A DNA stretch of 40,722 bases. Source: Opitutia bacterium. GTDB taxonomy: Bacteria > Verrucomicrobiota > Verrucomicrobiia > Opitutales > Opitutaceae. Location of the stretch: positions 1-40,722 of the forward strand of contig JACPIS010000007.1 of NCBI GenBank assembly GCA_016187925.1, given 5' to 3'. Shown one piece after another: positions 14,164 through 37,538 of the stretch (position 1 is the stretch's first letter; every line of letters begins with the position of its first letter). Below the pieces are notes generated by a model, which was not told the origin of the DNA, did no database searches, and saw only the letters and a program-made list of their open reading frames with translations. Position numbers and translations under genes: made by a program.

Positions 14164-14166
14164 TGT

Positions 14167-14218
14167 TGGAGGGCCCGCCTCCCGGCGGGCCGCGGCTCAG
14201 CCGGAGCTGAGCCCTCCA
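14167..14218. repeat. Double-hairpin palindromic element inside the hut operon
   Basis: Terminal inverted repeats TGGAGGGC and GCCCTCCA enclose two perfect hairpins: GCCCGCC-TCCC-GGCGGGC (14173-14190) and GGCTCAGC-CGGA-GCTGAGCC (14194-14213). It occupies most of the 79-base hutH-hutU gap. There is no T tract, so it is not a classical terminator; it may protect or process the mRNA, like REP elements in other operons. Confidence 0.8.
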
Positions 14219-14242
14219 GAAACCCACACCCCCTTTCGCCCC

Positions 14243-15952: not shown

Positions 15953-15956
15953 CCCC

Positions 15957-16832: not shown

Positions 16833-16835
16833 CTC

Positions 16836-18047
16836 GTGAAATCCCTCCTCATCCGCAACGCCCGCATCCTGACGCTTGGCAGCTCCGAGCTGCCCCGCCG
16901 CGGCGCGGAGCTGCGCGACCTCGGCGTCATCCCGCAGGGCGACGTGCTGATCGAGGCCGGACGCATCGCTGCCGTCGGCCCCAACATCAACATCCCCGAC
17001 ACGCCCGACACGATCAATGCGGCCGGGCGCGTGCTGATGCCGGGTTTCGTCGACTGCCACACGCACGCCTGCTGGGCGGGCGACCGCCTCGCCGAGTGGG
17101 AGATGAAGCTGCGCGGCGTGCCTTATCTCGAGATCCTGCAGGCGGGCGGCGGCATCCACTCCACCGTGCGCGCGGTCCGCGCCTCTTCCGAGACACAACT
17201 GGCCGCGGGTCTGCGCACGCGGCTCGACGCCATGCTGCGCGGCGGCACCACGACCGTCGAAGTGAAGAGCGGCTACGGCCTGTCGACCGAAGCGGAACTC
17301 AAGATGCTGCTCGCCATCCGGCACGCCGCCAGGGACTGGCCGGGCCTCGTGATCCCGACGGCGCTGCTCGGCCACGCCTACGAGGGCGACTTCGAGGAAT
17401 TCGTCGAGCGCACCATCACCGAGACGCTGCCGCAGCTGCGCTATGAATTCCCCGGACTGACGGTCGACGCCTTCTGCGAGAAGGGCGCATGGACCGTCGA
17501 CGCGTGCGTGCGGCTCTTCGAGGAGGCTGCGCGACGCGGTCATCCGTGCCGCGTGCATGTCGACCAGTTCAACTCCCTCGGCATGCTGCGCGAGGCGCTG
17601 CGCCTGGAGGCGCGCAGCGTCGACCATCTCGAGGCGACGGCCGACGCGGATATCGCCTTGCTCGGCCAGTCACGTTCCTACGGCGTCATCCTCCCCTGCA
17701 CCGGTTTCCACACCGACGGTCGCTACGCGCGCGGCCGCACACTGGTCGACACCGGCGCCGCCCTGGCCTTGGCGACCAATTGCAACCCCGGTTCGGCGCC
17801 GACGCACTCCATGCCCTTCGCCATCGCCCTGGCCGTGCGGCACTGCGGCCTGACACCCGCCGAAGCCATCACCGCCTGCACGATCAACGCCGCTGCATTG
17901 CTCCACCGCAACGACCGCGGGCGCATCGAGCGCGGCCTGCGCGCCGACCTGATCCTGCTCGCGCACAAGGACGAGCGCCAGCTCGCCTACGAATTGGGTG
18001 GCAACCCCGTCGATCTCGTCATCTGTGGCGGACGGGTGGTTGGGTAA
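16836..18047 (+). CDS. hutI: Imidazolonepropionase
   Basis: A 403-residue amidohydrolase-fold enzyme that opens the imidazolone ring to N-formimino-glutamate. The metal-binding FVDCHTHACWAGDR is at about residues 68-81; GGGIHSTVRAVR, TTTVEVKSGYGL, LGHAY, RVHVDQFNSLGM, SVDHLEA and LATNCNPGSAPTHSMPF are all characteristic, with the catalytic His in the HVDQF and DHLE segments and a metal Asp/Asn region near NCNPG. It starts with GTG three bases after the hutG stop, so translation is probably coupled. It ends the operon; the following convergent gap holds several palindromic repeats that may serve as transcription ends. Confidence 0.96.
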   Translation: MKSLLIRNARILTLGSSELPRRGAELRDLGVIPQGDVLIEAGRIAAVGPNINIPDTPDTINAAGRVLMPGFVDCHTHACWAGDRLAEWEMKLRGVPYLEILQAGGGIHSTVRAVRASSETQLAAGLRTRLDAMLRGGTTTVEVKSGYGLSTEAELKMLLAIRHAARDWPGLVIPTALLGHAYEGDFEEFVERTITETLPQLRYEFPGLTVDAFCEKGAWTVDACVRLFEEAARRGHPCRVHVDQFNSLGMLREALRLEARSVDHLEATADADIALLGQSRSYGVILPCTGFHTDGRYARGRTLVDTGAALALATNCNPGSAPTHSMPFAIALAVRHCGLTPAEAITACTINAAALLHRNDRGRIERGLRADLILLAHKDERQLAYELGGNPVDLVICGGRVVG

Positions 18048-20320: not shown

Positions 20321-20336
20321 GGGCACGGGAGGTGCT
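20321..20336 (+). promoter_or_regulatory. Sigma-54-like promoter motif upstream of gltB
   Basis: GGGCACG, four bases, GTGCT matches the -24/-12 consensus TGGCACG-N4-TTGCW at 9 of 11 fixed positions, including the invariant GG and GC with correct spacing. Initiation about 12 bases after the GC would give a leader of only a few bases before the ATG at 20353. A nitrogen-controlled glutamate synthase promoter is plausible, but GC-rich sequence makes chance matches common. Confidence 0.4.
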
Positions 20337-20352
20337 CAATAATCAGGTTGCT

Positions 20353-23300: not shown

Positions 23301-24948
23301 CTCGCCGCTCATCGCCCGCCTGCGCTTCTCCGTGCCCGGCGTCACGCTCATCTCGCCGCCGCCGCACCACGACATCTATTCCATCGAGGACCTCGCGCAG
23401 CTCATCCTCGACCTCAAGGAGGTCAACCCGCGCGCCAAGGTCTGCGTGAAGCTCGTCTCCTCCTCCGGCATCGGCACCATCGCCGCCGGCGTGGCCAAGG
23501 CCTATGCCGACGTCGTGCTCGTCTCCGGCCATGAGGGCGGCACGGGCGCCTCGCCGCTCGGCTCCATCAAGAACGCGGGCTCCGACTGGGTGCTCGGCCT
23601 CGCCGAGGCGCATCAGGTGCTCATGATGAACGGCCTCCGCAACCGCGTCACGCTCCGCACCGACGGCGGCATGAAGACCGGCCGCGACATCGTCATCGCC
23701 GCCATCCTCGGCGCCGAGGAATTCAACTTCGGCACCGCCGCGCTCATCGCGGCCGGCTGCGCGATGTTCCGCGTCTGCCACCAGAACACCTGCCCCGTCG
23801 GCGTCGCCACCCAGCGCGAGGACCTCCGGGCCAAGTTCCGCGGCAAGCCCGAGAACGTCATCGCCTTCTTCAACGCCGTCGCCGAGGAAGTCCGCCACTA
23901 CCTCGCCCGCCTCGGCGCGCACACGCTCAACGACGTCATCGGCCGCCCCGAGCTGCTCGAGCAGATCGACGACCCGGCGAACCCGAAGACACGTTACATC
24001 AATCTCTCCGGCGTCCTCCACAACGTCGACCCGACCGGCCAGCTCGACCGCATCCACACCCGCGAGCGCAACGAGCGCTTCGGCTCCGAGGGTTCGCTCG
24101 ACGAGCTCATCGTGCAGGAGGCGCGCCACGTCATCGCCGGCCGCGCCGGCCGCTTCAGCGCCAGCTACAAGGTCAAGAACACGAATCGCTGCCTCGGCAC
24201 GCATCTCTCCGGCCAGATCGCCTACCTGCGCGGCAGCCATCATCCGCTCGCCCCGCGCACCGTCGACCTGCGGTTCAACGGCACGGCCGGGCAGAGTTTC
24301 GGCACCTTCCTCGTCGCGGGCGTGCGCATGACGCTCACGGGCGAGGGCAACGACTACGTCGGCAAGGGCATGAGCGGCGGCGAGATCATCATCCGCCCGC
24401 GCAGCGACGAGACGTTCCCCTGGGAGACCAACTGCATCATCGGCAACACCTGCCTCTACGGCGCCACCGGCGGCCTGCTCTTCGCCGCGGGCTGGGCCGG
24501 CGAGCGCTTCGCCGTCCGCAACTCCGGCGCCACCGCCGTCGTCGAGGGCGTGGGCGACCACGGTTGCGAATACATGACGCGCGGCACCGTCGTGGTGCTC
24601 GGCCGCGTCGGCCTCAACTTCGGCGCCGGCATGTCCGGCGGCCTCGCCTTCCTCCACGACGAGCGCGGTGTCGTGCCCGATCGCGTCAATGCCGCCATGA
24701 TCACGCTCGAGCGCCTCTCCGACGCCGGCGAGATCGAGGCGCTGCGGCAGCTCGTCTCGGCCCACGCCGAGGCGACCGCCAGCCCGCACGCCCAGCGCTT
24801 GCTCGCCGACTGGAGCGCCACCGTGGCGAAGTTCTGGAAGGTGATTCCGAAGCCGCCCGTCGCGGACGTGCCCAAGCCGCTCTACAAGTACGAGCCGGTG
24901 ACCGCGCCCGAGACGGTCTCTCCGAATCGCGAGGCTATTCTGTCATAA
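20353..24948 (+). CDS. gltB: Glutamate synthase large subunit
   Basis: A 1531-residue iron-sulfur flavoprotein making two glutamates from glutamine and 2-oxoglutarate. After a 19-residue propeptide, Cys20 in HDACGVGF would become the N-terminal nucleophile of the class II amidotransferase domain (to about 430). A central domain follows, then the FMN-binding synthase domain (about 810-1200; GMSLGALSPEAHETLA, then GGNSNSGEGEN), then the GXGXG beta-helix domain to about 1480. The [3Fe-4S] ligands are Cys1136, Cys1142 and Cys1147 in CAMFRVCHQNTCPVG. No gltD small subunit is adjacent, so either it is encoded elsewhere or the enzyme is ferredoxin-dependent; the length suits either. The ATG at 20353 is chosen by the propeptide length; a GTG at 20332 would add seven residues. 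An antisense frame covering nearly the entire gene is a codon-bias shadow. Confidence 0.96.
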   Translation: MSQSVSSSPLYDPANEHDACGVGFIARPDGMRTHEVLKHALTALKNLAHRGAIDADSSTGDGAGVMTQLPYELLRSHLEAAKISVIPRDRDLGVGMFFFPRESDLAQAQIKKIVIEAVKEEGLGFVAWRDVPTDYSILGRKAADTRPAVVQAIVARMDDASDDEFERRLYLAQKVAERRAGEARLDGFYVCSFSSRTIVYKGLLNAPEVRRFFPDLRDPRYRTAFAIFHQRYSTNTFPTWHLAQPFRLLAHNGEINTIRGNRVRMHARERSMAGGVWGGRFSDLHPIVQPGMSDSASFDNVLQVLTLGGRSALHSMMMMAPLAWETNPRLSEQARGFFRYHSLLVEPWDGPAALVFSDGRYVAATLDRNGLRPARFKIYEDGHVMLASETGLVPELTAPVTYSGRLGPGRMIAIDLVGGRVMMDEDIKREIAEDPQYLAWCERHMLNLQKFASSRPESEIIEPPATYQATLLQQQLAHGYDLEEQELILTPLAEGNEPTGSMGDDTPLAILSRRPKLLYSYFKQLFAQVTNPPIDSIREKSVMSLGASLGPRVSLFETKPSPTGVLTLDSPILLDHEVKALSAVPFFRNAVVRLPVLFEVSAGPDALAAAVRDLAYRAQVAVEAHGAKILILTDRGLSPDQAAIPMLLAIGAVQHQLIRAGLRMKCDVMVETAEVREVHHIACVIGYGANAVNPYLALASVRELATQGKLAAGITPAQAEKNFQKSIEAGLLKIMARMGISTLASYRGAQVFEAIGISNKVVEECFGGTPSPIGGIGYRQIAEEVRRRHERAFPRPGGAASEAEAEATAVPATSLTNEGYYRVNKKGDGEYHGWNPKVVAGMHKFLKSGSPEEYRTYANTADEHQPITLKDLLKIRFPAAGLPIEEVEPIEDIRRRFTTAGMSLGALSPEAHETLALAMNRIGGNSNSGEGENGDSANSAIKQIASGRFGVTAEYLANAREIEIKMAQGAKPGEGGQLPGHKVSPLIARLRFSVPGVTLISPPPHHDIYSIEDLAQLILDLKEVNPRAKVCVKLVSSSGIGTIAAGVAKAYADVVLVSGHEGGTGASPLGSIKNAGSDWVLGLAEAHQVLMMNGLRNRVTLRTDGGMKTGRDIVIAAILGAEEFNFGTAALIAAGCAMFRVCHQNTCPVGVATQREDLRAKFRGKPENVIAFFNAVAEEVRHYLARLGAHTLNDVIGRPELLEQIDDPANPKTRYINLSGVLHNVDPTGQLDRIHTRERNERFGSEGSLDELIVQEARHVIAGRAGRFSASYKVKNTNRCLGTHLSGQIAYLRGSHHPLAPRTVDLRFNGTAGQSFGTFLVAGVRMTLTGEGNDYVGKGMSGGEIIIRPRSDETFPWETNCIIGNTCLYGATGGLLFAAGWAGERFAVRNSGATAVVEGVGDHGCEYMTRGTVVVLGRVGLNFGAGMSGGLAFLHDERGVVPDRVNAAMITLERLSDAGEIEALRQLVSAHAEATASPHAQRLLADWSATVAKFWKVIPKPPVADVPKPLYKYEPVTAPETVSPNREAILS

Positions 24949-24983
24949 ACCTCCAGTTGGTTTGTGGCCTGCTAAGGCTAGGC

Positions 24984-25008
24984 GCGGACGGCCCCACTCC
25001 CCGTCCGC
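24984..25008 (+). other. Hairpin between gltB and the porin gene
   Basis: GCGGACGG and CCGTCCGC form an 8-bp perfect stem around a 9-base loop. There is no T tract. It may attenuate or process a gltB-porin transcript, or sit in the porin leader. Confidence 0.45.
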
Positions 25009-25033
25009 CAACCTACTAGCAACCACCACCAAC

Positions 25034-25771
25034 ATGAGAAAAACCCTGCTTGCGACCGGCGCGCTTCTGCTCGCCTCCCTCCTCCACGCGGAAGACGCCA
25101 AGTCCTCCTACGCCATCACCACGGATTTCACGTATGCCTCGGAATACATCTTCCGCGGTGTCGAGCAGCAGGACCAAGCCTTCCAGCCCTCGGTCACTTT
25201 CACCAAGGACACGCTGTCCCTGGGTGTCTGGACCAGCCAGGCGATCACCAACAAAAACCTCGTCTGGGCCGAAGGCAGTGAAATCGATCTCTGGGGCGGC
25301 TACGGCATCCCGTTCGCGGAGAAATACACCTTCACCGTCGGCGGCACCTACTACCTGTATCCGTCGGCCCGCGCCTCCCTCGGCGAACCGGATAGCACCT
25401 ACGAGCTGAGCGCCGGCGTCTCCGGTCCCGTCGGCCCGCTGACCGGCACGGCGACGTACTTCCACGACTTCAAGCTCAAGGCGAACACCTTCGAGTTCAC
25501 CCTGGCCTACAGCGTACCGCTGACGGACAAGAACTCGACGTTCGATCTCAGCGCCGTCTACGGCTTCAACAACATCACCGATGGCAACGGCGATCTGCCC
25601 GGCACGGGCGGTGTCGACTACCGCTACTACTGCCTGCACGCCGTCTACGGCTACAAGCTGACGCCCGCCGCCACCCTCAAGGTCGGTCTGCACTTCTCGG
25701 ACGTCTCCAAGCTGCCCGGCGCCCCCGGTGCGAACACCGTCCTGACCGTCGGCATCACGACCGGCCTGTAA
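25034..25771 (+). CDS. TorF-family putative porin (outer membrane beta barrel)
   Basis: A 245-residue outer-membrane protein with signal peptide MRKTLLATGALLLASLLHAED. The mature start TDFTYASEYIFRGVEQQDQAFQPSV is the hallmark of the Gcw_chp/TorF family. Alternating hydrophobic strands continue throughout (for example YTFTVGGTYYLYPS, LKVGLHFSDVS), and the protein ends in VLTVGITTGL, a typical barrel-closing strand. Members are presumed small-solute porins; none of the substrate data can be read from sequence. It follows gltB by 85 bases on the same strand, so shared nitrogen-related control is possible. The ATG at 25034 gives a proper signal peptide; the upstream extension has none. A strong terminator follows. 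Confidence 0.87.
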   Translation: MRKTLLATGALLLASLLHAEDAKSSYAITTDFTYASEYIFRGVEQQDQAFQPSVTFTKDTLSLGVWTSQAITNKNLVWAEGSEIDLWGGYGIPFAEKYTFTVGGTYYLYPSARASLGEPDSTYELSAGVSGPVGPLTGTATYFHDFKLKANTFEFTLAYSVPLTDKNSTFDLSAVYGFNNITDGNGDLPGTGGVDYRYYCLHAVYGYKLTPAATLKVGLHFSDVSKLPGAPGANTVLTVGITTGL

Positions 25772-26112: not shown

Positions 26113-28005
26113 TCAACTGCCTGAGCCCGTCAGAGATTCCGCTCCCGTCGCCGACCGCTCGAGAAACAGCACGTCCCAGTACTTGAGTGAAGGTATGATT
26201 ACATCCACGTACTCCCCATCGGCATCGTGGCCGGCGGCGAAAGGAAGCGATCGGTATCGGCCGCCGTCGCAGTCGGGCGAGGCCCAGCCCACGGAAGATA
26301 TCTTCCCCGCCAGGCGCAAACGGACACGCACATCCTTCAGCAGGGGCGCATCGGGCCGGTCGGCCTTCACGTCGCGCCAGTGCGCGTTGTCCGAGCCCAG
26401 CAGGTTGATCAAGTGCACCATGGTGGTATCCCCCTTTTGGCGCGTGAAGGCCCACACTGCATTCGGAACCCCGTAAGGATTGGAGGGATGATCCAGCAGG
26501 ACCGCGGTCGCCGGAGCCGGCACGACCTCATAGCTGAGGAAATTTTCGTAGGCCGTCAGGAAATCGTAGTAATGCCGCAGCGCCGTGCGCAGGGCCGGCG
26601 ACGGGGTGAACTTCTCGTTGTCCGGAAAATATTCGCTGGAGAGCAGCCGCGAGCCGTCGCCCAGCTCGATATGCGAGGCGCCCACGGCGAGGATCGCCGC
26701 ATTGGTCAGAAGGACACTGGGCTTGTTGAACTCCCTGCCCGCCTTGTCGGGACCGGAGTAGCCCCGGTGCATGTAAGCCGGAAACACCAGCGCGGCCCGG
26801 GGATTGGCGGTATGCACCTCTTCGGCCGCCGCCATGATGCTGGCAAACGTCTCGTGGTTTTCCCAGAGTTCCGAATACACAAAATCCACGGCGGCGCGGG
26901 CGGTCAGATTCTGGCCGGTGGTGTTGACGGTCTGGAAGACGATGCGCTTCTTCAGGAAATCGCGGGCGCGATTGACGAAATCGGGGAACCCGGCGACGAA
27001 ATCGACCGGCGACCCATCGTAGGCAAAGGCTCCCTGGGTCCCGAAGGTGTCGATATGCCAGCCATCGAACGGATAGACGCGAAACAATTCGCCCATTTTC
27101 CCGAAGAGGTAGTTTTGCCACTCGGGATCGTTCTGGTTCATGTAGCAAAGCCGTGAGGTCTGCCAGTCGTAGCCGCCGCCGGTGATCGCCAGCGCCTTCA
27201 TCGTCTCCACCGTCCTCGGGCCGGTCGGTCCCTCCCAAGTCGCCCATTGGAGCTTCACTCCGGAGCCATTTCGGAACGCATCTTCGTAGGCGCTGTAACT
27301 GGCATTGTAGGCCATGCACACCATGTTGCGTTCGTGCGCCCGATCGAGAAATGCCCGCAGGATTACGGCGTCGATTTCCCGTCCGGCGATGTCCCGCCAG
27401 CGCGCCGCCGGATGCCCGGGGTCGCCCGCCAGCGGCTGCTCGTGCCGGTATTGGTAGTCGTAGAACTCCAGGCCGTTCAGGTGGTATTTGTTCAACTCCG
27501 CGATCCACGCCGCGGGATCCGCCCCCTCCGACCGGGAGTAGTGCGCGATGTATCCGTAGCGGGGAAACCGCGTCCAGTCCGACGAAACATCCACCGCCGT
27601 TTCAGTCTTGGAAACGGCCCGTGACGCGGAATCGACCAGCTGCACGTCCACGAAATAGCCCGTGAAGTCCTCGGCTGGCGCCGTCCACGCCACGAGTCTT
27701 TCCGCCTCCTCTGCCTTTGCCAATGCGAAGGGCGCGCTCGTGGCAACGTGCACCTGCCGGCCCAACCTCCAGAAGGAAACCTCCAGACGCAGTCCGGATA
27801 TTTCCACCGGGGCCGCGTTATGCAGCCGCACGTGAAGGGTGACCTTTTCGCCCGGAGCATACCGGGATTTGTCCGGATACGCCTCCACGGCATGAGCCTG
27901 ATCTGCTGGCAACGGGAGTTTCGCCGCTGGGACGGGCGTGGGCAGCCCCAGGGGCAGGCCGAGTGCGAGGAGCGTCAGAAGGCGGCGGACAGTGATGCGA
28001 TGCAT
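26113..28005 (-). CDS. Glycoside hydrolase family 66, dextranase-like, secreted
   Basis: A 630-residue exported enzyme (signal peptide RRLLTLLALGLPLGLPTPVPA). A beta-sandwich domain (about residues 35-140, YAPGEKVTLHVRLHNAAP) precedes a TIM barrel that carries the GH66 pattern: FPRYGYIAHY, LEFYDYQYRHEQPL, the nucleophile candidate Asp319 in DGWHIDTFG, and the acid/base candidate Glu379 in VYSELWEN. A C-terminal beta domain follows. Known GH66 enzymes cut alpha-1,6-glucan (dextran) internally or make cyclic isomaltooligosaccharides; I see no large inserted carbohydrate-binding module typical of the latter, so an endo-dextranase is more likely. It is the last gene of a minus-strand operon, 16 bases after GH31. 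No ribosome-binding site is seen at the ATG at 28005. Confidence 0.85.
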   Translation of the reverse strand: MHRITVRRLLTLLALGLPLGLPTPVPAAKLPLPADQAHAVEAYPDKSRYAPGEKVTLHVRLHNAAPVEISGLRLEVSFWRLGRQVHVATSAPFALAKAEEAERLVAWTAPAEDFTGYFVDVQLVDSASRAVSKTETAVDVSSDWTRFPRYGYIAHYSRSEGADPAAWIAELNKYHLNGLEFYDYQYRHEQPLAGDPGHPAARWRDIAGREIDAVILRAFLDRAHERNMVCMAYNASYSAYEDAFRNGSGVKLQWATWEGPTGPRTVETMKALAITGGGYDWQTSRLCYMNQNDPEWQNYLFGKMGELFRVYPFDGWHIDTFGTQGAFAYDGSPVDFVAGFPDFVNRARDFLKKRIVFQTVNTTGQNLTARAAVDFVYSELWENHETFASIMAAAEEVHTANPRAALVFPAYMHRGYSGPDKAGREFNKPSVLLTNAAILAVGASHIELGDGSRLLSSEYFPDNEKFTPSPALRTALRHYYDFLTAYENFLSYEVVPAPATAVLLDHPSNPYGVPNAVWAFTRQKGDTTMVHLINLLGSDNAHWRDVKADRPDAPLLKDVRVRLRLAGKISSVGWASPDCDGGRYRSLPFAAGHDADGEYVDVIIPSLKYWDVLFLERSATGAESLTGSGS

Positions 28006-28021
28006 AGGAAATGGTTTGGGG

Positions 28022-30544
28022 TCAGCGGATCTCGATCCGGTGGGGGGAGCCGTCATCCCGGATGCGCACCGTGACGATTCCGTCCTCGGCGGACCAACCC
28101 GGGCCCGGTCCACCGGGCGGGAGCGCGGCCAATTCTTGGCCATCGATCAGCACCCGGCCGACGGACTGGGGGGAGCGGAAGACGCAGGCAAAATCGCGCG
28201 GCGCGGGCTGGTAGCTCCCGCGATGCGTTCCGATCGAAATCACCGACCTTCCCTCCCCCTGCTCATAGCTCACCACCGTGCGGCGCCAGATCCCCCGTTG
28301 GTAATCGGGGCTCAGGCCATCGTCCTCGTAGAGTTCGGTCGAGGCGCGCCCCTGGGCATCGGGATAAATGGAGAAGGTGATCAGGTCCCACGGCTTCTCG
28401 CCGACGTGGTTCATGGCCGGAGCGGCCGGAATGATGCTGCCGCCGCGCACATACAGCGGTATCTTGTCCAATGGAGCGTCCGCCCGCACCATCTCGCCGC
28501 CGGGCACCGTGGCCCCGGTCCAATAATCATGCCAGAGCCCCTGGGGCAGATACACAAGGCGGCTGGTCTGGCCGGACTTGAGGATCGGCGCGGCGAGGAG
28601 ATCGGATCCGATCATGAACTCGTCATCGATTCCAGCGGTGTTCGCGTCGTCCTGATAGTTTAGCACGAGTGGACGGAAGAGCGGCACGCCGGTGCGGTGC
28701 GCCTCCTCCAGGCTGGTATAAAGGAAGGGGAGCAGCCGATACCGCAGCTTCAGATACTTCCGGGCAATGTCCTCGTAGTGCTTCCCAAAACGCCATGGCT
28801 CATGGTCGTAGGCGTCAATGGCGGCGTGATTGCGGCAAAACGGCGCGAGGAAGCCGACCTGATACCACCGGGCGAGCAATTCGCCGTCGGCCCGGCCGAT
28901 AAAGCCCGGGATGTCCGCGCCCGCGAACGGCTCGCCCGAAAGGCCGACCGTCGTCAGCATCGGGATGGACAGGGCGAGCGACTCCCACGTGCTGGTGTTG
29001 TCGCCCGTCCACATGGTCGAATACCGCTGGATACCCGCATAGCCGGCACGGGTGATGACATAAGGGCGCCGATCGGGACGCAGCCGCTGCAGCCCCTCAA
29101 ACGTCGCCCGCGCCATGCCGAGAGCGAAGACGTTTCGGTTCATCGCATACGAGGTGTTCGCTCCGCCGTCGTCGAAGACCACATCGCCCTGGGTCTGGCC
29201 GGAGCGGTCGATGAAGTCCGCGGGCTCGTTCATGTCCGTCCAAATCCCCGCGACTCCCTGATCCAGGTAGGCGCGGTGCAGGTCGCCCCACCAGCGGGCG
29301 GCCGCATCCTTGGTGTAGTCCACGAACACCGCCTTCCCCGGCCACACTTCGCCGATGTAGAGTTCGCCGTTTTTGCGGCGAAGGAAATGCCCGCCGGCCA
29401 GACCCTGGTCGAACACGTAGTAATTGCGGTCCTGGGCGGCCAACTCCGGCTCGCTCCGCGGCGCCGCCGTATCACCCGCCGCGGCGGCCGGCTGGTATTT
29501 GACCCCGGGGTCGACGATGGTGACGACCTTAACCCCTTGGCGCCCCAAACGCTCGAGCAATCGTTTCGGCTCGGGGAACCGCTCCTGATCCCAGGTGAAG
29601 ACCCGATAGCCGCTCATGTAGTGGATATCGAGATGCACGACATCCAAAGGGAGATCCTCAGCGCGGTAGCGCCCGACGATGTCCTCGACCTGCGAAGCCG
29701 GATAATAGCTCCACCGGCTTTGCTGGTGCCCGAGGGCCCAAAGCGGAGGCAGGGGCATGCGTCCGGTCAGGTCGGCATAGCGGCCGACCACTTTCTTCAG
29801 GGAAGGCCCCCAAAAGAAATAGTAGTTCATTTCGCCGCCTTCCGCCGAATACGAGATCCACTCCTGGGAGGAAGCGCCGAAGTCGAAACGCGTGCGGTGG
29901 CTGTTGTCGAAAAACACGCCGTAGGCCCGCCCGCCGGCGAGTCCGAGGTAGAAGGGAATGCTCTGGTAGATCGGGTCCGTGCCTTCGACGTAGCCCGGCG
30001 TGTCGGAACACCACATGGAGAAGGTGCCGCGGCGCTTGTCGAGCCGGGCGGCCTTCTCCCCAAGGCCGTAAAAGTGCTCTTCCAAGCCGAGTCGCTTCCT
30101 GGCCTCGACGGTGCCGGTCGCGGGGTCAAAGGACATTGGCCCGGCGTCGGCGTTGATCAACTCATGGGTCGCAGCATCGCGATATTCGATGAGGAGTGGC
30201 TGCCGCCGGATCACCACTTCCAATTCGCCGGTGAGGAGGCGAACGCTGGTGTCGTCCTCCACCAGGCTCCAGGCTACCGGCGACCAGTCGGTCCGGGCGA
30301 TCGCCCAGGAGTGGTCGCGCTCCGGCAAGGGCCGGCCAAAGGCCGCCCGCACCCGGACGAGGTCCGAGGCGAGGACAGAAACCCTGACGGTGGAGCGGTC
30401 GGTGCAAACCAGATCGACACCCGCATCGGTGCGCACGACCCGTGCAACATTGCCGATGCCCTGCCGTTGCGGCCCGTCCGCGAGCGCGGTCTGCACGGGC
30501 AAGCATGACAAGCAGCAGGCGAGAAGCAGATATCGTGTATTCAT
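28022..30544 (-). CDS. Glycoside hydrolase family 31 alpha-glucosidase, exported
   Basis: An 840-residue exo-acting alpha-glycosidase. The N-terminus (MNTRYLLLACCLSCLPVQTALA) is a signal peptide, so it works in the periplasm or outside. An N-terminal beta-sandwich contains HFYGLGEKAARLDKR; the TIM barrel has the nucleophile Asp437 in GIWTDMNEPA and acid/base Asp515 in MWTGDNTSTW, with LDIHYMSGYRVFTWD and PFCRNHA (subsite -1 residues) in proper order. C-terminal beta domains include VRGGSIIP and LYEDDG. The family splits alpha-1,4 or alpha-1,6 glucosides or alpha-xylosides; with a GH66 neighbour, isomaltooligosaccharides are the natural guess. It sits 113 bases after the TonB receptor, with a hairpin in the gap. 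Confidence 0.93.
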   Translation of the reverse strand: MNTRYLLLACCLSCLPVQTALADGPQRQGIGNVARVVRTDAGVDLVCTDRSTVRVSVLASDLVRVRAAFGRPLPERDHSWAIARTDWSPVAWSLVEDDTSVRLLTGELEVVIRRQPLLIEYRDAATHELINADAGPMSFDPATGTVEARKRLGLEEHFYGLGEKAARLDKRRGTFSMWCSDTPGYVEGTDPIYQSIPFYLGLAGGRAYGVFFDNSHRTRFDFGASSQEWISYSAEGGEMNYYFFWGPSLKKVVGRYADLTGRMPLPPLWALGHQQSRWSYYPASQVEDIVGRYRAEDLPLDVVHLDIHYMSGYRVFTWDQERFPEPKRLLERLGRQGVKVVTIVDPGVKYQPAAAAGDTAAPRSEPELAAQDRNYYVFDQGLAGGHFLRRKNGELYIGEVWPGKAVFVDYTKDAAARWWGDLHRAYLDQGVAGIWTDMNEPADFIDRSGQTQGDVVFDDGGANTSYAMNRNVFALGMARATFEGLQRLRPDRRPYVITRAGYAGIQRYSTMWTGDNTSTWESLALSIPMLTTVGLSGEPFAGADIPGFIGRADGELLARWYQVGFLAPFCRNHAAIDAYDHEPWRFGKHYEDIARKYLKLRYRLLPFLYTSLEEAHRTGVPLFRPLVLNYQDDANTAGIDDEFMIGSDLLAAPILKSGQTSRLVYLPQGLWHDYWTGATVPGGEMVRADAPLDKIPLYVRGGSIIPAAPAMNHVGEKPWDLITFSIYPDAQGRASTELYEDDGLSPDYQRGIWRRTVVSYEQGEGRSVISIGTHRGSYQPAPRDFACVFRSPQSVGRVLIDGQELAALPPGGPGPGWSAEDGIVTVRIRDDGSPHRIEIR

Positions 30545-30596
30545 GAGCGCGATGGGCGGGTCAGGCGAACCTACTCGCTTTTCCTGGCCGGGCCTC

Positions 30597-30624
30597 GCGC
30601 ACACCGAGGCTGGCCGGTGTGCGC
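30597..30624 (-). other. Intercistronic stem-loop between TonB receptor and GH31 genes
   Basis: GCGCACACCG and CGGTGTGCGC form a perfect 10-bp stem with an 8-base loop. There is no T tract on either strand. Similar hairpins after the highly expressed first gene of transport operons stabilise the upstream mRNA, giving more receptor than enzyme; here that is inference. Confidence 0.6.
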
Positions 30625-30657: not shown

Positions 30658-33600
30658 CTAGAGTTTGGTTCCGAAGCCGATGTTGATGCTGCGACCGGGC
30701 GCGTAGAGGAAGCCGTAGCGGTGCTGATCATCGAGGACGTTGTATACGTTCACCTGCACGTAGGACTTGTGCCCCTTCCACTGGAAGTCGTAGCGCCCGA
30801 AGATATCCACCGTATACTGCCGGTCGGTATACATGACGACGGGGTTGCCGTTGTTGTCGGTGATCGCCCCGCCGCCATGCGTGTAACCGCTGGCGAATTC
30901 CTTGGGCCCCTCGTAGCGCACGCCGCCACCGAGCACCAGCCCCTTGAGCGAGGCCCACTTGTCGAAGCGGTAGTTGGTGAACAGACTCCAAGTGTCCTTG
31001 GGATAATCCTGCCCCTGCGCGCCCGGGAAGATCTGCCCCTTATACTGATAGGTCGAGCTGTCGGACTCGTCGCTGTATTGCTCGTTCTTCCCATACACGC
31101 CGCGCAGGCCGAAGTTTCCGTTCGGGAAGAGCCAAGGCGTCCAACGATCCTGGGCGTAATAGGGATACTTCGGAAAGCTGCCGAGTGTGAGAATCTTGTG
31201 GTTGTTGTGCGTGAAGTTGAAGATGATCTGCCACTCGTCCACGGGCGTGATGATGAGCTGGCCGTCGTAGCCCGAGTTCTGGTCGGACTGCGTGGCGTAG
31301 AGCGCCGTGGTGGAGTCGAAGCCCACGAAATCCTGGGTGGCGCTGTTGTAGCCGGTGTAGGCCGGAGCAGAGCCGAAGAACCAGCCCGGCCAATCGTCCG
31401 CCCCCGGGTGTCCCTGGTAGACTTCGCGGGTGTAATTGTAGATGGAGTCCAGATAAGCCGCGCCTTCGGGGGTGGAGGCGTTGATCACGGCGTGAGGGGC
31501 GTTCGGACCGCCATTCTGGCTCGGGCTGCCGCCGCCCGCGATGAGACTGCGGAAGGCGGATTCGTCGACTTGGTTGCCGTTCGTATCAAAATAGCGGACC
31601 GCACCCGACGTTTTCGCCGCAGTCCACGCGTTCTGAATGGCCACGCGCAACGGGTTATAGGCGTCGTTCCGGTAGCTGTCCCAAGTGGGGTCATTCGGAC
31701 CGTAGGGGCTCTGGCTCAGCTTGGTAAGATCGCCCCAGTAGGCGTAATTGTTCGAGTAATCGATCGTGGGATTACCGTTCTTGTCGAGCCACCTCGTCGC
31801 CGCGTCGGGATTTTCCGACGTGATCTTGTAGACGGTCGGCTTGTTCGGATCGAACCGGTGGTAGGCCGTCTGCGGCGCCCACCAGATCGGTCCGTTCGGC
31901 ACACCCGTGCGCGTGATCTTGTATTTGGAGATGCTGCCGGAGACCCGGCCGCCAAACAGGTCGAACTTGAGGCCGATTTCCTTGTTCTTGGCCTTGACCG
32001 CGCCGATGGCGTTGCCGGTGAGGTCGCGCAATCCATCGAAATTCGGGTTCAGGCCGCCGGAGGTCAGGGCAAAGAACGACACCTGCTTGATCGGGGAGAC
32101 ACTGATGCCGATCTGCCGGGTCAGGTCCGTCTGGGCACGGCTTGAGACCGCGTTGGAGCTGCCCAGGCTGCCGTCGGCATAGCGATACGTGTTGTTCTGG
32201 GTCGACACGCTGTTGCGATCCCGCCGGAGGCCACCGAGAATCGTGACCCGGCCGTCAAGGAAACTGCCGTTGTAGATGGCGTAGTAGCCGGTCTCCTTGG
32301 CATTGGAAAAATTCCAGCCCAGCGGACGGATCGGCCGGTCGGGCGTGCCGTCGCCCTGGGTGCCGAAGCGGAACTCCCGGGGATCGGCCGCACTCTTGTA
32401 GTTGAACACGCTGTTGGCCGTATCCAGGCCGCTCGTCTGGATGGACTTTTTGTCCTGCTCCGTGGAGACGCCCACGAGGAAATTGTTTTTCATCGCCGCC
32501 CATTTGTTGTCCTCAAACAGGTTGAGCTTGTAGTTCAGTTCGACGCGGGCCTGATCGGCCCGGGTGCCTTCCAGCACCTGCGACCAGGAATACTGCACGA
32601 TCGAGTTCGGCACCGGATTCGCGCCCCAGCCGCCACCTTCGCGGTCGCCGGCCGCCGGGTTGAGGATCACCGGGACGACGGTCGACCAAAGGGAAGACGG
32701 CCCGACGTTGTTCGTGACATTTCCGTTCACGTCCCGCGTGAGGAAGCTCACCGAGGAATGGTCGACCGCCGCCAGCAGATGCAGATCGTCGGTGAGTTCC
32801 TGCGTCAACTTGAGTTCGATGTTGCCGATGTGCGAATTCTGGAAGGTGTCCGGGCCGGACCAGCGCATCGTGCGCAGGCTGAGGCCGGGGAAGCTGAGAA
32901 AGCCGGCGCGCTCAAAGCGCTCCTGGCCCCCGTTGGCGTCGCCGGAACTGATGTCCGCCCGGGCGCGAAGGCTCTGGAAACCGATCCCCTTCTTCTTTTG
33001 TTCGCCATACTCGGTATCGACCAGGATCTCGGTCTTGGGCCAGGGCTTGAAGCTGAAGACCGGCGCGACGAAAAACTTCTGGTGATCGTAGTGGTCGGTG
33101 AAATCGCCGCCCTCCTCGAGCGCACCGGTCAGCCGATACGCCGATTCACCGAGGAAGCCCACCCGGCCCAGTGGTCCGGTCGAGTCGAGCGTCGCCCGCT
33201 TGAAGGCGTAGCTGCCGAAGGTCAGGTCGACGGCATCGGCTCGCGTGCTCTCGGGGGTCTTGACCAAGTAATTGACCACGCCACCAAAGTTGCCGATGCC
33301 GTAAAGCAGCGCCGCCGGCCCGCGCACAACCTCGATGCGGTTGATGTTCACTGTGTCACTGGACGCCTTGCGGCGGAATCCGTCGCGCAGCGCGTTCTCG
33401 GTGAGGAAGCCGCGCATGACGAAGGTCGAATCAGTCTTGTTCGACGTCTGGCCATTGGGATTGTTCACGCCACCCGGGTTCTGGTAGGCGTTGCCGCGAG
33501 TGTAGTCATTCTGCGACTGGATCTGCACGCCGGCGCTGAATTTGAGCGCCTCGCGGAGGCTGGACGCACCCGTGTCCCGGATGAACTGGTCCGTGATCAC

Positions 33601-33879
33601 CTCGAGCGACATGGGGAGGTCCTTGATCGGGCTGTCCAGACGCGTGCCCGAAATGGCGTTGGTCGCCTTGTAACCCTTGTCCTTGGCCGTCGTGACGGAA
33701 AAGGGGCTGAGAACGATGGGCTTCTCGGCCTCGCTGTTCAGGTTCGCGGCGGAAGCCGGATCGGCGACGACGGGCCCGGCAGCCTCCGCGCCAAAGGCGC
33801 AGGTAGCAGCGATGAGCCCAAAAGTGAGAAACGCCCAGACTGGCCGGACGGCGGGGATCGGAGGAGTGCGAGAGATCAT
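30658..33879 (-). CDS. TonB-dependent outer membrane receptor
   Basis: A 1073-residue outer-membrane transporter. The signal peptide ends near AFGA (residue 31). The mature N-terminus has IVLSPFSVTTAKDKGYKATNAISGTR (about 55-80), the conserved start of Opitutaceae receptors, where the TonB box would lie. The plug domain follows, with LPMSLEVITDQFI, MRGF and RIEVVRGPAALLYGIGNFGG. The rest is a large beta barrel ending SINIGFGTKL. TonB energy moves bound oligosaccharides, siderophores or vitamins into the periplasm; the GH31 and GH66 genes downstream point to alpha-glucan oligomers. No SusD homologue is present. The ATG at 33879 gives the proper signal peptide; an upstream in-frame extension to 33933 lacks support. 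Divergent from the kinase gene. Confidence 0.94.
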   Translation of the reverse strand: MISRTPPIPAVRPVWAFLTFGLIAATCAFGAEAAGPVVADPASAANLNSEAEKPIVLSPFSVTTAKDKGYKATNAISGTRLDSPIKDLPMSLEVITDQFIRDTGASSLREALKFSAGVQIQSQNDYTRGNAYQNPGGVNNPNGQTSNKTDSTFVMRGFLTENALRDGFRRKASSDTVNINRIEVVRGPAALLYGIGNFGGVVNYLVKTPESTRADAVDLTFGSYAFKRATLDSTGPLGRVGFLGESAYRLTGALEEGGDFTDHYDHQKFFVAPVFSFKPWPKTEILVDTEYGEQKKKGIGFQSLRARADISSGDANGGQERFERAGFLSFPGLSLRTMRWSGPDTFQNSHIGNIELKLTQELTDDLHLLAAVDHSSVSFLTRDVNGNVTNNVGPSSLWSTVVPVILNPAAGDREGGGWGANPVPNSIVQYSWSQVLEGTRADQARVELNYKLNLFEDNKWAAMKNNFLVGVSTEQDKKSIQTSGLDTANSVFNYKSAADPREFRFGTQGDGTPDRPIRPLGWNFSNAKETGYYAIYNGSFLDGRVTILGGLRRDRNSVSTQNNTYRYADGSLGSSNAVSSRAQTDLTRQIGISVSPIKQVSFFALTSGGLNPNFDGLRDLTGNAIGAVKAKNKEIGLKFDLFGGRVSGSISKYKITRTGVPNGPIWWAPQTAYHRFDPNKPTVYKITSENPDAATRWLDKNGNPTIDYSNNYAYWGDLTKLSQSPYGPNDPTWDSYRNDAYNPLRVAIQNAWTAAKTSGAVRYFDTNGNQVDESAFRSLIAGGGSPSQNGGPNAPHAVINASTPEGAAYLDSIYNYTREVYQGHPGADDWPGWFFGSAPAYTGYNSATQDFVGFDSTTALYATQSDQNSGYDGQLIITPVDEWQIIFNFTHNNHKILTLGSFPKYPYYAQDRWTPWLFPNGNFGLRGVYGKNEQYSDESDSSTYQYKGQIFPGAQGQDYPKDTWSLFTNYRFDKWASLKGLVLGGGVRYEGPKEFASGYTHGGGAITDNNGNPVVMYTDRQYTVDIFGRYDFQWKGHKSYVQVNVYNVLDDQHRYGFLYAPGRSINIGFGTKL

Positions 33880-33996
33880 TGTGGAGCAGACGATAGACGC
33901 GGCGGGTGTTACGGAACGAAAGGGAGCGGCCAAAAGACTGCTTTTCCGGACGCACGCGGACAGGGGCTGGGGTGCCAGAGGCGTGGCCGCAAAAGA

Positions 33997-34012
33997 GTGC
34001 TGTCGGCAGCAC
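33997..34012. promoter_or_regulatory. Hairpin/palindrome in the receptor-kinase divergent region
   Basis: GTGCTG-TCGG-CAGCAC is a perfect 6-bp inverted repeat about 120 bases before either start codon. It could be a regulator site or a leader hairpin; nothing further supports a choice. Confidence 0.4.
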
Positions 34013-34057
34013 CCGGGGTTAACGCCGATAATGCCCGACGTCCGCGGAGTTGCCTAG

Positions 34058-34073
34058 CTACCCAAGTGAGTAG
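34058..34073. promoter_or_regulatory. NarL/LuxR-type palindromic site candidate
   Basis: CTACCCAAGTGAGTAG is an imperfect palindrome (12 of 16 symmetric positions). Its arms, TACCCA and TACTCA on opposite strands with a two-base centre, resemble the TACYYMT heptamers that NarL-family regulators bind as inverted pairs two bases apart. It lies in the 252-bp divergent region between the TonB receptor and the kinase, 59 bases before the kinase ATG. The NarL-type regulator encoded at 36858 is the obvious candidate to bind it. Confidence 0.45.
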
Positions 34074-34131
34074 TTCTGGCAGGCGCCTCCCGAGAATCGT
34101 TGCGAACCCCGGCAAGGGCGGCGATCACCGC

Positions 34132-36861
34132 ATGACGGACAAAAAACTTGGCCTCCTCCCCCGCCCGCTTCATTGGTTTCCGGCCCTCATGCGCCACCTG
34201 CTGAAAAATTTTCCGCGCATCCTGAGGATCCTGGTTGCCCTGCCTGTTTTTCCCGTCTGGACAATCGCCGCCGCCGCGGCCGGCCAACCCGCCGCCGCCG
34301 TGCGGGAGATCATGATCGGCGAGCTCCTCCCCGCCGGAGTCGACGGACAAACGGTCGAAGTGGAAGGCACGGTCACCGCTGTCTCCCGGGTGGGCGGGCG
34401 ACTGACACTCGAGCTAAGCGCCGGAACGGGGCGCATCAACGTGACCATCGCGGACGGACTGGGCCTGCCCGGACCACTGCTCATGCACAGCCATGTGCGT
34501 GCCACGGGCATTTGCCACGGCACCTACACCGTCGACGGGCATTGGGTCGCCGGCTCGCTCTTTGCCCCCGGGAGCGAGGCCGTCCGCATCCTCGATATCG
34601 CACCGACGCTGTGGAGCGAGTATCCACTGACGGACCTCGGCGAGCTGGCGCACCGTCTCCAGAAGGAAGGAGCCGCCCCATTGGTGCATGTTCGCGGGGT
34701 CGTTCATGCAGGGCGTCCGGAGGGAACGGCGACGCTGGAGGACGGGACCGGGCATCTCGTGATCGAGCATCTGACCCAATCCGCCGTCCGCGCAAACGGC
34801 CCGATTGAAATCCTCGGCCTGCTTACCCGGCAGGGCGGAGACCTGAAGTTGTGGTGCGGCTTCTCCCGCCCGGCGATACAGGGAAGTGCGGGCGAGACGG
34901 AAGCTCTCCCGGTATTGACCACCGCGGAGCAGATCCACCAACTGAGCGCGCGGGAATCGCAGCGCAGCTATCCGGTCAGGCTGCGAGGCATCGTGACCCG
35001 GGTCATTCCGGAGAACCACGCCATCATCCTTCAGGATTTCACCCGCGGAATCTACGTGGACCGTCTCACCTCCGCGCAACGGCCGCAGGTGGGCGACTAC
35101 TGGGAAATCGAAGGCACTACGGACCCCGGCGAATACTCCCCCTTTGTCCATGCGACCGCCGACCGCCGCCGCGGCCTCGGCTATCTGCCCGACCCGCTGC
35201 GCCCATCCTGGGATCAGATGCTCAACGGCAGCATGCATTGCCAATACGTCGAGCTGGAGGGATTCGTCACGGCCGCCCGGGCAAATCAACTGACGCTGTT
35301 CACCCGGGCCGGCCGGGTGCAGATCACTCTCGACGATCCCTCCGCGAGCGACCTCAAACCTTACGAAAAGGCCATCGTGCGGGTTCGCGGCTCGCTCTTC
35401 AACCGATGGGATACCCAGACCGGCCGGATTCGCATCGGCGAATTCTTTGTCGGCGCTCCGACCATTTTTATCGACCAGGAACCGTTGGGCGACCTGCTGG
35501 CAGCTCCGATCAAACGGGTGTCCGAACTGCTCCTGTTCGACCCCCACGCCGGACCGTTCCAGCGGGTCAGGGTGGCAGGAAAGGTCGTCCACGCCGACGG
35601 CCCCCTGATTTTCCTGATGGATGAGGGCGGCGGACTGCGTCTCCGGCTCGCCGCGCCCAAGTCGCTCGCCCCGGGAGACCTGGTCGAAGCGACGGGATTC
35701 CCGGAATGGAGCGGCCCATCCCCGGAGCTGCAGGAGGCCGCCGTGCACCTGACCGGTCACGCCGCCCTGCCCGCTCCGCGGCGGATACCCTCCGCCCACC
35801 TGCTGCGCGAGGAGTGGGACTCCACCCTTGTCACGCTTGAGGCCGAGTTGCTGCAGACCAGCCGCGAAGGCGAGGCCGACATCCTTCAACTGCAAAACGG
35901 CGTCCACCGCTTTGTCGCCCGCCTGCCGGCCGGCGGCGCCGCCCTGCCCTCGCTGCCCGCCGGCAGCCGTCTCTCCCTGACCGGTGTTTATGTCGGCATG
36001 GGCGGCAACCGGGCCGCCGGCCGCCCTATCGATGCGTTTGAACTCCGGCTGAACACCGCCGCCGACGTGCGCGTGATAGCGCGTCCGGCTTGGTGGACCA
36101 TTTCCCGGATGCTCGCGGTCATCGGGCTGCTGCTGGGAGTATTGTTCCTGGCCCTGCTCTGGATCCGCCAGCTGCGCAGGCAAGTCGAGGAACGTGCCGG
36201 GCAACTCGAACGGGAGATCGGGGAGCGCCAGCGCATCGAGCAGGAACGGACCCTGGAGCAGGAACGCAGCCGCGTCGCCCGCGACCTGCACGACGAACTC
36301 GGCGCCGGCCTCACCGAAGTCGGCATGCTGGGCGCGCTCGCCCGCACCTCCTCCCTGCCGGAGGCAACTAAGGAACGCTACCTGGCCGAGCTGACCGACA
36401 AGGCCCGGCAGCTGGTCGCCACCTTGGACGAGATCGTCTGGGCGGTGAATCCCCGCTACGATTCAGTCGGATCCATCGCCGAATACTTTTCCCTCTACGC
36501 ACAGCGCTTCCTGGAACTGGCCACCGTGCGCTGCCGGTTGGACATCGCCCGCGACCTGCCCGAGCATCTGGTGAATTCCAAGATGAGGCACGGCCTGTTC
36601 CTGGCGTTCAAGGAAGCGCTCAACAACATCGTGCGCCACGCCCGGGCGAGCGAAGTGACACTGACCCTCGCGGTGCTCGACCGGCAGCTTGTCCTGACGG
36701 TGACGGATAACGGGTGCGGACTTGCCGCCGTCGATCAGGCCCCCGGCCAGGACGGATTGGCGGGCATCACAGAGCGCATCCGCTCAGTCGGCGGGCGCTG
36801 CCTGGTCGAGAGCACACCGGGAACCGGCACCTCCCTTCGCTTTTGCATTCCCCTGCCATGA
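34132..36861 (+). CDS. Sensor histidine kinase with repeated OB-like extracytoplasmic modules
   Basis: A 909-residue membrane sensor. An N-terminal hydrophobic segment (about 27-50) is a signal or anchor. The region to about 650 is extracytoplasmic and contains six similar beta-rich modules with the pattern V.V.G.V....l.L.D..G.I.V.L at about 74-106, 185-216, 281-313, 372-403, 478-508 and 566-598, resembling OB-fold units. One transmembrane helix (about 660-678) leads to a coiled coil, then a HisKA_3 domain with phospho-acceptor His720 in RDLHDELGAGLTEVGML and a HATPase domain (EALNNIVRHA, DNGCGL, GLAGITERI, GTGTSLRF). It phosphorylates the response regulator, whose start overlaps its stop by four bases. 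An ATG at 34189 is an alternative start. The ligand is unknown; the divergent glucan genes suggest a sugar. Confidence 0.88.
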   Translation: MTDKKLGLLPRPLHWFPALMRHLLKNFPRILRILVALPVFPVWTIAAAAAGQPAAAVREIMIGELLPAGVDGQTVEVEGTVTAVSRVGGRLTLELSAGTGRINVTIADGLGLPGPLLMHSHVRATGICHGTYTVDGHWVAGSLFAPGSEAVRILDIAPTLWSEYPLTDLGELAHRLQKEGAAPLVHVRGVVHAGRPEGTATLEDGTGHLVIEHLTQSAVRANGPIEILGLLTRQGGDLKLWCGFSRPAIQGSAGETEALPVLTTAEQIHQLSARESQRSYPVRLRGIVTRVIPENHAIILQDFTRGIYVDRLTSAQRPQVGDYWEIEGTTDPGEYSPFVHATADRRRGLGYLPDPLRPSWDQMLNGSMHCQYVELEGFVTAARANQLTLFTRAGRVQITLDDPSASDLKPYEKAIVRVRGSLFNRWDTQTGRIRIGEFFVGAPTIFIDQEPLGDLLAAPIKRVSELLLFDPHAGPFQRVRVAGKVVHADGPLIFLMDEGGGLRLRLAAPKSLAPGDLVEATGFPEWSGPSPELQEAAVHLTGHAALPAPRRIPSAHLLREEWDSTLVTLEAELLQTSREGEADILQLQNGVHRFVARLPAGGAALPSLPAGSRLSLTGVYVGMGGNRAAGRPIDAFELRLNTAADVRVIARPAWWTISRMLAVIGLLLGVLFLALLWIRQLRRQVEERAGQLEREIGERQRIEQERTLEQERSRVARDLHDELGAGLTEVGMLGALARTSSLPEATKERYLAELTDKARQLVATLDEIVWAVNPRYDSVGSIAEYFSLYAQRFLELATVRCRLDIARDLPEHLVNSKMRHGLFLAFKEALNNIVRHARASEVTLTLAVLDRQLVLTVTDNGCGLAAVDQAPGQDGLAGITERIRSVGGRCLVESTPGTGTSLRFCIPLP

Positions 36862-37538
36862 CCGAACCCCTGATCAAAGTCGCTGTAGTCGAGGACAACA
36901 AAACCACCCGCGAAGGGCTGGAATCCATCATCAACCTGGCGGCGGGCTGCCGCTGCGTGTGCGTCTGCCCGACGGCCGAAGACGCCTTGCGGCTCCTCCC
37001 CAAACACCAGCCGGAGGTGGTGCTGATGGACATCCAGCTGCCCAACATGTCGGGAGTGGAGTGCACGGCCCGCCTCAAGGAGCTCATGCCCGCAGCACAG
37101 ATCATCATGGTCACGGTCTACGAAGATCCGGAGCGGATTTTCCAGGCCCTGCGCAGCGGCGCCTGCGGCTACCTGCTCAAACGGGCCGTTCCCGAGCAAA
37201 TCATCACGGCCATCCGCGACGTCCATCAAGGCGGAGCCCCGATGAGCGGGGAGATCGCCCGCAAAGTCATCAGGCAGTTCCAAAACCAGGCCGCGACCAC
37301 CGAGGCCGTCGACCATCTTTCCGCCCGGGAGCGGGAGGTGCTCGAACTAGTCGTCCACGGATTCGCGAACAAGGAGATCGCCGAACGGATGAGCGTCTCC
37401 GTCGAGGCGGTGCGCTGGCACCTGAAAAATATCTATCACAAACTCCACGTGCACACCCGTACGGAAGCTGCGCTAAAATTTCGCGCCGGCAGCCACTTGG
37501 AAACGAACGCGCAACGCACCGACTCCCGCACTACCTGA
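36858..37538 (+). CDS. NarL/FixJ-family response regulator
   Basis: A 226-residue two-component regulator. The receiver domain (residues 5-122) has the acidic pair in VVEDN, phospho-acceptor Asp58 in VLMDIQLP, Thr in MVTVYED and the conserved Lys in YLLKRA. A LuxR-type helix-turn-helix follows (about 150-212: LSAREREVLELVVHGFANKEIAERMSVS, then VRWHLKNIYHKL). Translation is coupled to the kinase through an ATGA overlap. It most likely controls the divergent TonB receptor-GH31-GH66 operon and perhaps its own operon; the palindrome at 34058-34073 is a site candidate. After the stop, 37539-37661 holds nothing recognisable. Confidence 0.94.
   Translation: MTEPLIKVAVVEDNKTTREGLESIINLAAGCRCVCVCPTAEDALRLLPKHQPEVVLMDIQLPNMSGVECTARLKELMPAAQIIMVTVYEDPERIFQALRSGACGYLLKRAVPEQIITAIRDVHQGGAPMSGEIARKVIRQFQNQAATTEAVDHLSAREREVLELVVHGFANKEIAERMSVSVEAVRWHLKNIYHKLHVHTRTEAALKFRAGSHLETNAQRTDSRTT

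Follow-up and report, generated by a model that had tools for sequence, protein, structure and literature searches.

The stretch of DNA analysed here, referred to as the window, comprises 40,722 nucleotides from an Opitutia bacterium (Verrucomicrobiota; Opitutaceae; contig JACPIS010000007.1 of assembly GCA_016187925.1). It encodes a sensor histidine kinase in which six predicted oligonucleotide/oligosaccharide-binding (OB) modules precede a transmembrane helix, followed by a response regulator gene whose start overlaps the kinase stop codon (ATGA). The borders of the kinase open reading frame (ORF) were confirmed, with the start ATG at 34132 and the stop TGA at 36859-36861. The features of the pair are as follows:

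34132..36861, + strand: sensor histidine kinase of 909 amino acids (six OB modules, transmembrane helix, HisKA_3, HATPase_c)
34216..34284, + strand: N-terminal hydrophobic segment, residues 29-51, signal peptide or signal anchor, from a Kyte-Doolittle peak
34291..34599, + strand: predicted OB module 1, type A, residues 54-156, from structure prediction, structure match and profiles
34621..34878, + strand: predicted OB module 2, type B, residues 164-249, holding EDGTG, from structure prediction and profiles
34918..35187, + strand: predicted OB module 3, type B, residues 263-352, which opens the B-A-B-A core, from prediction, structure match and profiles
35206..35490, + strand: predicted OB module 4, type A, residues 359-453, from structure prediction and profiles
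35509..35772, + strand: predicted OB module 5, type B, residues 460-547, holding MDEGGG, from structure prediction and profiles
35779..36093, + strand: predicted OB module 6, type A, residues 550-654, adjacent to the membrane, from prediction, structure match and profiles
36088..36174, + strand: transmembrane helix, about residues 653-681, from a hydropathy peak, with a basic/coiled linker after it
36262..36855, + strand: HisKA_3 and HATPase_c kinase core, from Pfam domains and motif reading
36858..37538, + strand: response regulator with Response_reg and LuxR/GerE helix-turn-helix (HTH) domains, over the Pfam cut-off, and Asp58

HisKA_3 (residues 711-774) and HATPase_c (821-908) each exceed the Pfam cut-off, and the kinase motifs are intact: His720, KEALNN at 827, DNGCG at 859 and GLAGI at 875, the last three of which we take to be the N, G1 and G2 boxes. 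With a phospho-accepting histidine and these boxes beside both domains, the protein has the make-up of a HisKA_3 (NarL-type) kinase. Its chain stops after HATPase_c; the regulator is a separate gene, and there is no fused receiver (REC) domain or AraC-type HTH. Judged by sequence, the kinase and the LuxR-type regulator form a complete two-component pair, and both proteins are in themselves ordinary.

The six-module array and its two module types

An earlier note on this sequence had placed six spaced OB-like beta units in about 600 residues before the transmembrane helix, and had described a repeated layout unlike PAS, Cache or propeller sensors. A region of that length does lie between two hydropathy peaks, one near residues 29-51 and the other near 653-682, and the two turns named in the note are present, EDGTG at residue 203 and MDEGGG at 496, both in type B modules. 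AlphaFold2, run on residues 45-665 with 48 sequences (the window protein and 47 relatives), gave six beta units in series rather than a single non-repetitive domain, with a mean predicted local distance difference test score (pLDDT) of 89.5 and a predicted template-modelling score (pTM) of 0.69. Modelled alone, the four-module B-A-B-A core reached a pLDDT of 91.7 and a pTM of 0.82, so the prediction fixes the inner arrangement of the core more firmly than it does that of the full array.

Comparison with solved structures by VIA-align returned Z scores of 10.6-12.8 for the whole array and 10.8-12.2 for the core among the matches listed (50). These fall nearly all on modules 1, 3 and 6 and include tRNA synthetases, RPA, YgiW and similar chains, in which the domains matched are presumably OB domains; absence of a family from the Foldseek and VIA-align matches listed does not exclude that family. 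On the predicted model, modules 1, 3 and 6 are OB barrels by structure. Modules 2, 4 and 5, which the listed matches barely cover, are very likely OB barrels too, judging from their predicted strands and their profile homology within each type.

Profile-profile comparison revealed the module order A-B-B-A-B-A, with modules 1, 4 and 6 as type A and modules 2, 3 and 5 as type B. All six within-type pairs scored probabilities of 95.7-98.5, compared with 1.7-82 for the nine between-type pairs, at most 2.9 for column-shuffled controls (150 trials) and at most 3.3 for modules against kinase segments. Six of the between-type pairs stand clearly above the controls, and three (1.7, 2.1 and 3.3) are no better than them. 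A tree built on 83 modules, taken from 16 proteins, splits A from B with a support of 1.0; in it the core positions A1 (0.987), A3 (0.83) and B4 (0.79) are monophyletic, and B2 is not. The six units are thus genuine and beyond chance, but the two types rule out six copies of one repeat, and the repeated layout of the earlier note stands as six OB units of two kinds rather than as one plain repeat.

PAS, Cache and propeller (Reg_prop/Y_Y_Y) domains were not matched anywhere in the window kinase by Pfam at E values up to 10; with six OB units predicted instead, a single known sensor domain of this kind was rejected. Likewise, no Pfam or NCBIfam model rises above its cut-off over the window array. 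The best curated OB match is PF01336, at 24.6 bits against a cut-off of 27 (21.9 in another scan), and, with E values of up to 1 allowed, this family is matched in 25/48 members, one of which is the window protein; Rep_fac-A_3 exceeds its cut-off for one module in two hybrid relatives (L015 and L017). Thirteen columns of the core are invariant over 48 sequences. The net charge is -11 for the window array and -4 for the window core, and the core mean over the 48 sequences is -7.1 (range -23 to +3).

A constant core among relatives

A search of genome contigs with the window protein found 451 relatives, of which 80 were kept: 49 (L039-L087) match the sensor part and 31 (L088-L118) chiefly the kinase part. 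The profiled set consisted of the 49 together with 28 loci from the window's family (L011-L038; L010 duplicates L045). Hidden Markov models (HMMs) for types A and B were trained on 47 of the 49, leaving the 28 family loci outside training. A membrane-proximal B-A-B-A core was found in 77/77 profiled relatives, a count to be read with the bias towards a shared core that comes from finding relatives by similarity to the window protein. Two of these show oddities, L087 having one A split into two matches and L027 having one A as a short fragment.

Ahead of the core, the number of modules varies. Leaving out weak N-terminal matches (about 9-24 bits), eight of the 49 relatives have the A-B-B-A-B-A order of the window, 14 have A-B-A-B-A without module 2 (L042 being cut by a contig end), and 27 have B-A-B-A, among them L058, which is cut, and L087, which has a long N-terminal part lacking assigned modules. 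Short forms that start nearly at once with B-A-B-A account for 25/49. Among the window-family loci, with weak matches counted, there are four to nine modules, and a partial PA14 match over the cut-off lies ahead of the array in all four long window-type relatives scanned. The repeated layout first proposed is better described as a B-A-B-A core that stays constant and an extension at the N-terminal end that varies. The hybrid kinase L017/L165 (G173:C1, about 2153153-2157784) has nine modules by HMM, A-B-B-A-B-B-A-B-A, or ten with one weak match.

The same core is joined to different outputs. In window-type proteins it is mounted on a HisKA_3 kinase with a separate regulator, and HisKA_3 was also found in the short family member scanned (L032); in both long family members scanned (L015 and L017) a single chain combines HisKA and HATPase_c with a receiver. 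In Acidobacteriota, plasmid pACPOL4 of Acidisarcina polymorpha encodes a B-A-B-A core of 25% identity (L182:6884-8890) that continues through a hydrophobic segment into a diguanylate cyclase part (so annotated; a GGDEF domain, with GGEEF in the translation). A GH27 gene lies about 3 kb from this core-cyclase gene. The gene at L064:10484-11917 encodes a B-A-B-A array that has a hydrophobic segment at its C-terminal end but lacks a kinase. It shares its orientation with the genes of an OB kinase and a regulator, and the next called gene is a sugar transporter; such an array could serve as a decoy or co-receptor.

The core profile matches 54/387 Verrucomicrobiota genomes, in 32/197 genera, and a search with the sensor part matched 88 of the 252 genomes of the window's family. 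In the open-licence literature of PubMed Central (PMC), outside which most subscription journals lie, no description of an OB-array sensor kinase was found: PMC7159879, in which OB-fold, histidine kinase and Verrucomicrobia occur together, deals with conflict systems in the portion available, and the review PMC8534201 yielded no mention of OB-fold to a term search of its available portion. The suspicion of a poorly described sensor class is borne out by this spread and by the lack of any curated family above cut-off on the window array. What emerges is a real, widespread and apparently undescribed sensor architecture mounted on an ordinary two-component system.

Glucan genes beside the kinase and its clade

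The genes divergent from the kinase can give insights into what it may sense. The relevant features are:

33880..34131, no strand: intergenic region, about 252 bp between presumed divergent starts, presumed to hold the regulated promoters
30658..33933, - strand: TonB-dependent receptor, transcribed away from the kinase; by eye, translation likely starts at ATG 33879, ahead of a signal peptide; from Pfam
28022..30604, - strand: GH31 alpha-glucosidase-type enzyme, likely signal peptide (by eye), from Pfam and solved relatives
26113..28143, - strand: GH66 dextranase-type enzyme, likely signal peptide and likely start at codon 47 (by eye), from Pfam and solved relatives

The nearest solved structure to the GH66 protein is a dextranase (E 2e-120), and those nearest to the GH31 protein are alpha-glucosidases and a candidate GH31 alpha-glycosidase. 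With the TonB-dependent receptor they form a GH66, GH31 and receptor cluster like that in a dextran locus of the FjDexUL type. GH66 is rare in the window's family, being above cut-off in 2/252 genomes, the window's included, which could point to a separate acquisition of the enzyme set. Conservation of the same locus in other GH66 carriers was considered and was not borne out at the ten loci inspected (L154-L163). A sigma-70-like match lies at 34003-34032 (shuffle mean 0.0) and is no evidence of function. Elsewhere in the window, a glutamate synthase large subunit gene and then a Gcw_chp gene (20332-25771) adjoin the glucan operon, and histidine-utilization-type genes (aromatic amino acid lyase, urocanase and amidohydrolase) occupy 12625-18047 on the + strand.

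A tree of 54 sequences, built on core plus kinase and rooted at its midpoint, places the window kinase in a clade of seven with a local support of 0.944. Alpha-glucan-type enzymes adjoin the OB kinase in 5/5 clade relatives with flanking DNA, L042 being without flanks. For instance, L054 and L047 each have a GH13 neighbour (partial matches, that of L054 with a CBM53 match below cut-off), and L040 has an alpha-amylase-like gene and a gene 59% identical to the GH13 of L054. The neighbours of L045 are an alpha-1,3-glucanase-type gene, a GH65 gene and a weak GH71/GH99-like gene, and those of G192/L183 are homologues of this set at 58-68% identity. The conserved cluster by the OB kinases at L045:8941-14243 and L183:11783-17211 is probably an alpha-1,3-glucan utilization locus.

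Across the wider class, neighbours of OB kinases gave 19 glycoside-hydrolase family matches in 150 proteins compared with 0/96 by control kinases (p 9e-5, among the matches listed), with 25 families listed per scan, families picked afterwards and two matches possible in one protein. The matches listed were GH13 (5), fucosidase (3), GH2 (2), GH16 (2), GH77 (1) and GH53 (1) in a first batch, and GH2 (2), GH16 (2) and GH3 (1) in a second batch of 63 neighbours. Ten further family loci, one of them from the genome of L045, had GH28, GH94 and GH26 genes as well as housekeeping genes among 59 neighbours. The 1544-residue neighbour of L048 matched no solved relative. An association of the class at large with carbohydrates is no more than plausible.

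Proposed function, alternatives and meaning

Gene context supports the carbohydrate ligand that the earlier note had offered as one option, with glucan enzymes near both the window kinase and its clade relatives, and no other evidence for an alpha-glucan ligand is as strong as the clade neighbourhood. We propose, from sequence and context, that the OB array senses alpha-gluco-oligosaccharides, here most likely isomalto-oligosaccharides, and that the kinase-regulator pair switches the divergent genes, a reading to which we assign a probability of about 0.5. The kinase would sit in the inner membrane with its A-B-B-A-B-A array in the periplasm, where the array would bind alpha-gluco-oligosaccharides, most likely isomalto-oligosaccharides freed from dextran by the adjoining GH66 enzyme. 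Binding would alter the B-A-B-A unit, and the signal would pass via module 6 and the transmembrane helix to the HisKA_3 kinase. The kinase would then phosphorylate the co-encoded LuxR-type regulator, which may switch the divergent TonB-receptor, GH31 and GH66 genes from a promoter that we infer to lie between the two gene sets.

Several points weigh against this proposal. The link between sensor and ligand comes from gene neighbourhood, and the best array-level structural matches, among the Foldseek matches listed, are nucleic-acid-binding OB strings. Among solved structures, those closest to the TonB receptor are receptors for siderophores and the like, and at the ten other GH66 loci (L154-L163) no OB kinase occurs within the 13-20 kb fetched. 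In addition, clade members owe their shared GH13 and GH87-type neighbours to common descent, so that, with the window counted as one, the clade evidence amounts to about three independent associations, covering three linkage types; L039, the relative just outside the clade, has no glycosidase in the two neighbours scanned singly. The wider enrichment is not robust, since the controls reach 7/96, with p = 0.21, once their sulfatases (5) and 3-keto-disaccharide hydrolases (2) are included (among the matches listed). Finally, a Pfam scan of the window kinase found no PA14 domain, in contrast to the four long window-type relatives scanned.

Alternative roles for the array and its kinase must be considered. 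An envelope protein, such as a periplasmic binding protein or the TonB receptor, may dock on the array, and the kinase would then read this contact and not a free sugar. SipA, an OB protein of the periplasm, binds both OmpA and antimicrobial peptides, and an interaction with OmpF is reported for its homologue YgiW (PMC6370654, available portion); YgiW (1nnx) is among the structural matches to the array, and a TonB receptor gene lies next to the kinase. Across the 49 OB loci (L039-L087), however, BLAST with the window receptor labelled one gene (in L087), and TonB_dep_Rec_b-barrel was matched for 2/63 neighbours in one batch and lies outside the families listed for the other, so we consider docking unlikely. 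It is less likely still that the modules are mainly a stalk or spacer and that the ligand was bound by an N-terminal domain, PA14 in the long relatives, which the window has lost. The PA14 matches of the long relatives and the variable module number beside a constant core would fit such a role, but in the many short relatives B-A-B-A comes almost at the very start, the two hybrids scanned (L015 and L017) have no PA14, and the invariant columns lie in the core itself.

A coincidental position, with the pair merely adjoining the glucan genes and controlling something else, appears quite improbable to us. Neighbours in the wider class are indeed mixed (di-haem peroxidase, pilin-like and Ig-domain genes, for example), and no regulator site was identified in 33880-34131, where only short repeats were seen, which are no evidence of function. 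Against this stand the divergent layout with its intergenic region of about 252 bp and the adjoining of all five flanked clade relatives to alpha-glucan-type enzymes of different families. The tandem OB proteins HIN-200 p204, CST/CTC1, Teb1, Cdc13 and Pot1, all intracellular nucleic-acid binders, are OB-fold strings like the array and are among its top Foldseek matches, which could suggest a sensor of extracellular nucleic acid. We give this very little credence: the negative net charge of array and core speaks against a nucleic acid ligand, and the gene context of the clade is glycan-related. Query-normalised template-modelling scores are low (0.10-0.25), so it is the module fold that is common to tandem OB proteins and not the array shape.

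The proposed glucan sensor can be set beside known systems. In Bacteroidota, the sensors of hybrid two-component systems (HTCS) have propeller/Y_Y_Y regions and a fused AraC-type output. Like the window kinase they are membrane sensor kinases tied to glycan-degradation genes, but the window has six OB modules and a separate LuxR-type regulator. NarL/DesK-type HisKA_3 kinases with LuxR-type regulators share the kinase core and regulator domains, and DesK is the nearest solved relative of the window kinase; the sensor part is unlike theirs, with NCBIfam kinase models matching the window only from about residue 650 and below cut-off. YgiW/SipA (BOF family) resembles the window modules in having an OB fold in the periplasm, but is a small soluble protein without a kinase (PMC6370654, same portion). 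HTCS periplasmic regions bind oligosaccharides according to the available part of PMC10316084, which also describes FjDexUL of Flavobacterium johnsoniae, a demonstrated dextran locus with GH66, GH31, a TonB transporter (SusCD-like) and a SusR homologue, and 70 other Bacteroidota loci that pair GH31 with GH66. FjDexUL resembles the window in joining GH66, GH31 and a TonB-dependent transporter to a linked sensor or regulator; its regulator is the SusR homologue where the window has an OB-array two-component system, and, unlike FjDexUL, the window gave no SusD-like match among its 18 ORFs (Pfam, E up to 1e-4), to which the search was limited.

More broadly, these proteins may constitute a new class of extracytoplasmic sensor whose two-type OB arrays keep a constant B-A-B-A core, vary at the N-terminal end (from four to nine modules, at times with PA14) and, across two or more phyla, are swapped between diguanylate cyclases, HisKA_3 kinases and HisKA-REC hybrids. 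Such a class would detect glycan fragments, with the window clade specialised for alpha-glucans of differing linkage; we hold this fuller picture tentatively, at a little under even odds. It would mean that an OB string apparently serves signalling outside the cytoplasm, whereas the best-matching tandem OB strings in the PDB, among the matches listed, are intracellular nucleic-acid binders. Verrucomicrobiota are important polysaccharide degraders, and to our knowledge the means by which they detect polysaccharides are poorly known. A common sensor family with swappable outputs, along with a ligand guess based on its neighbours, makes polysaccharide sensing in this phylum directly testable.

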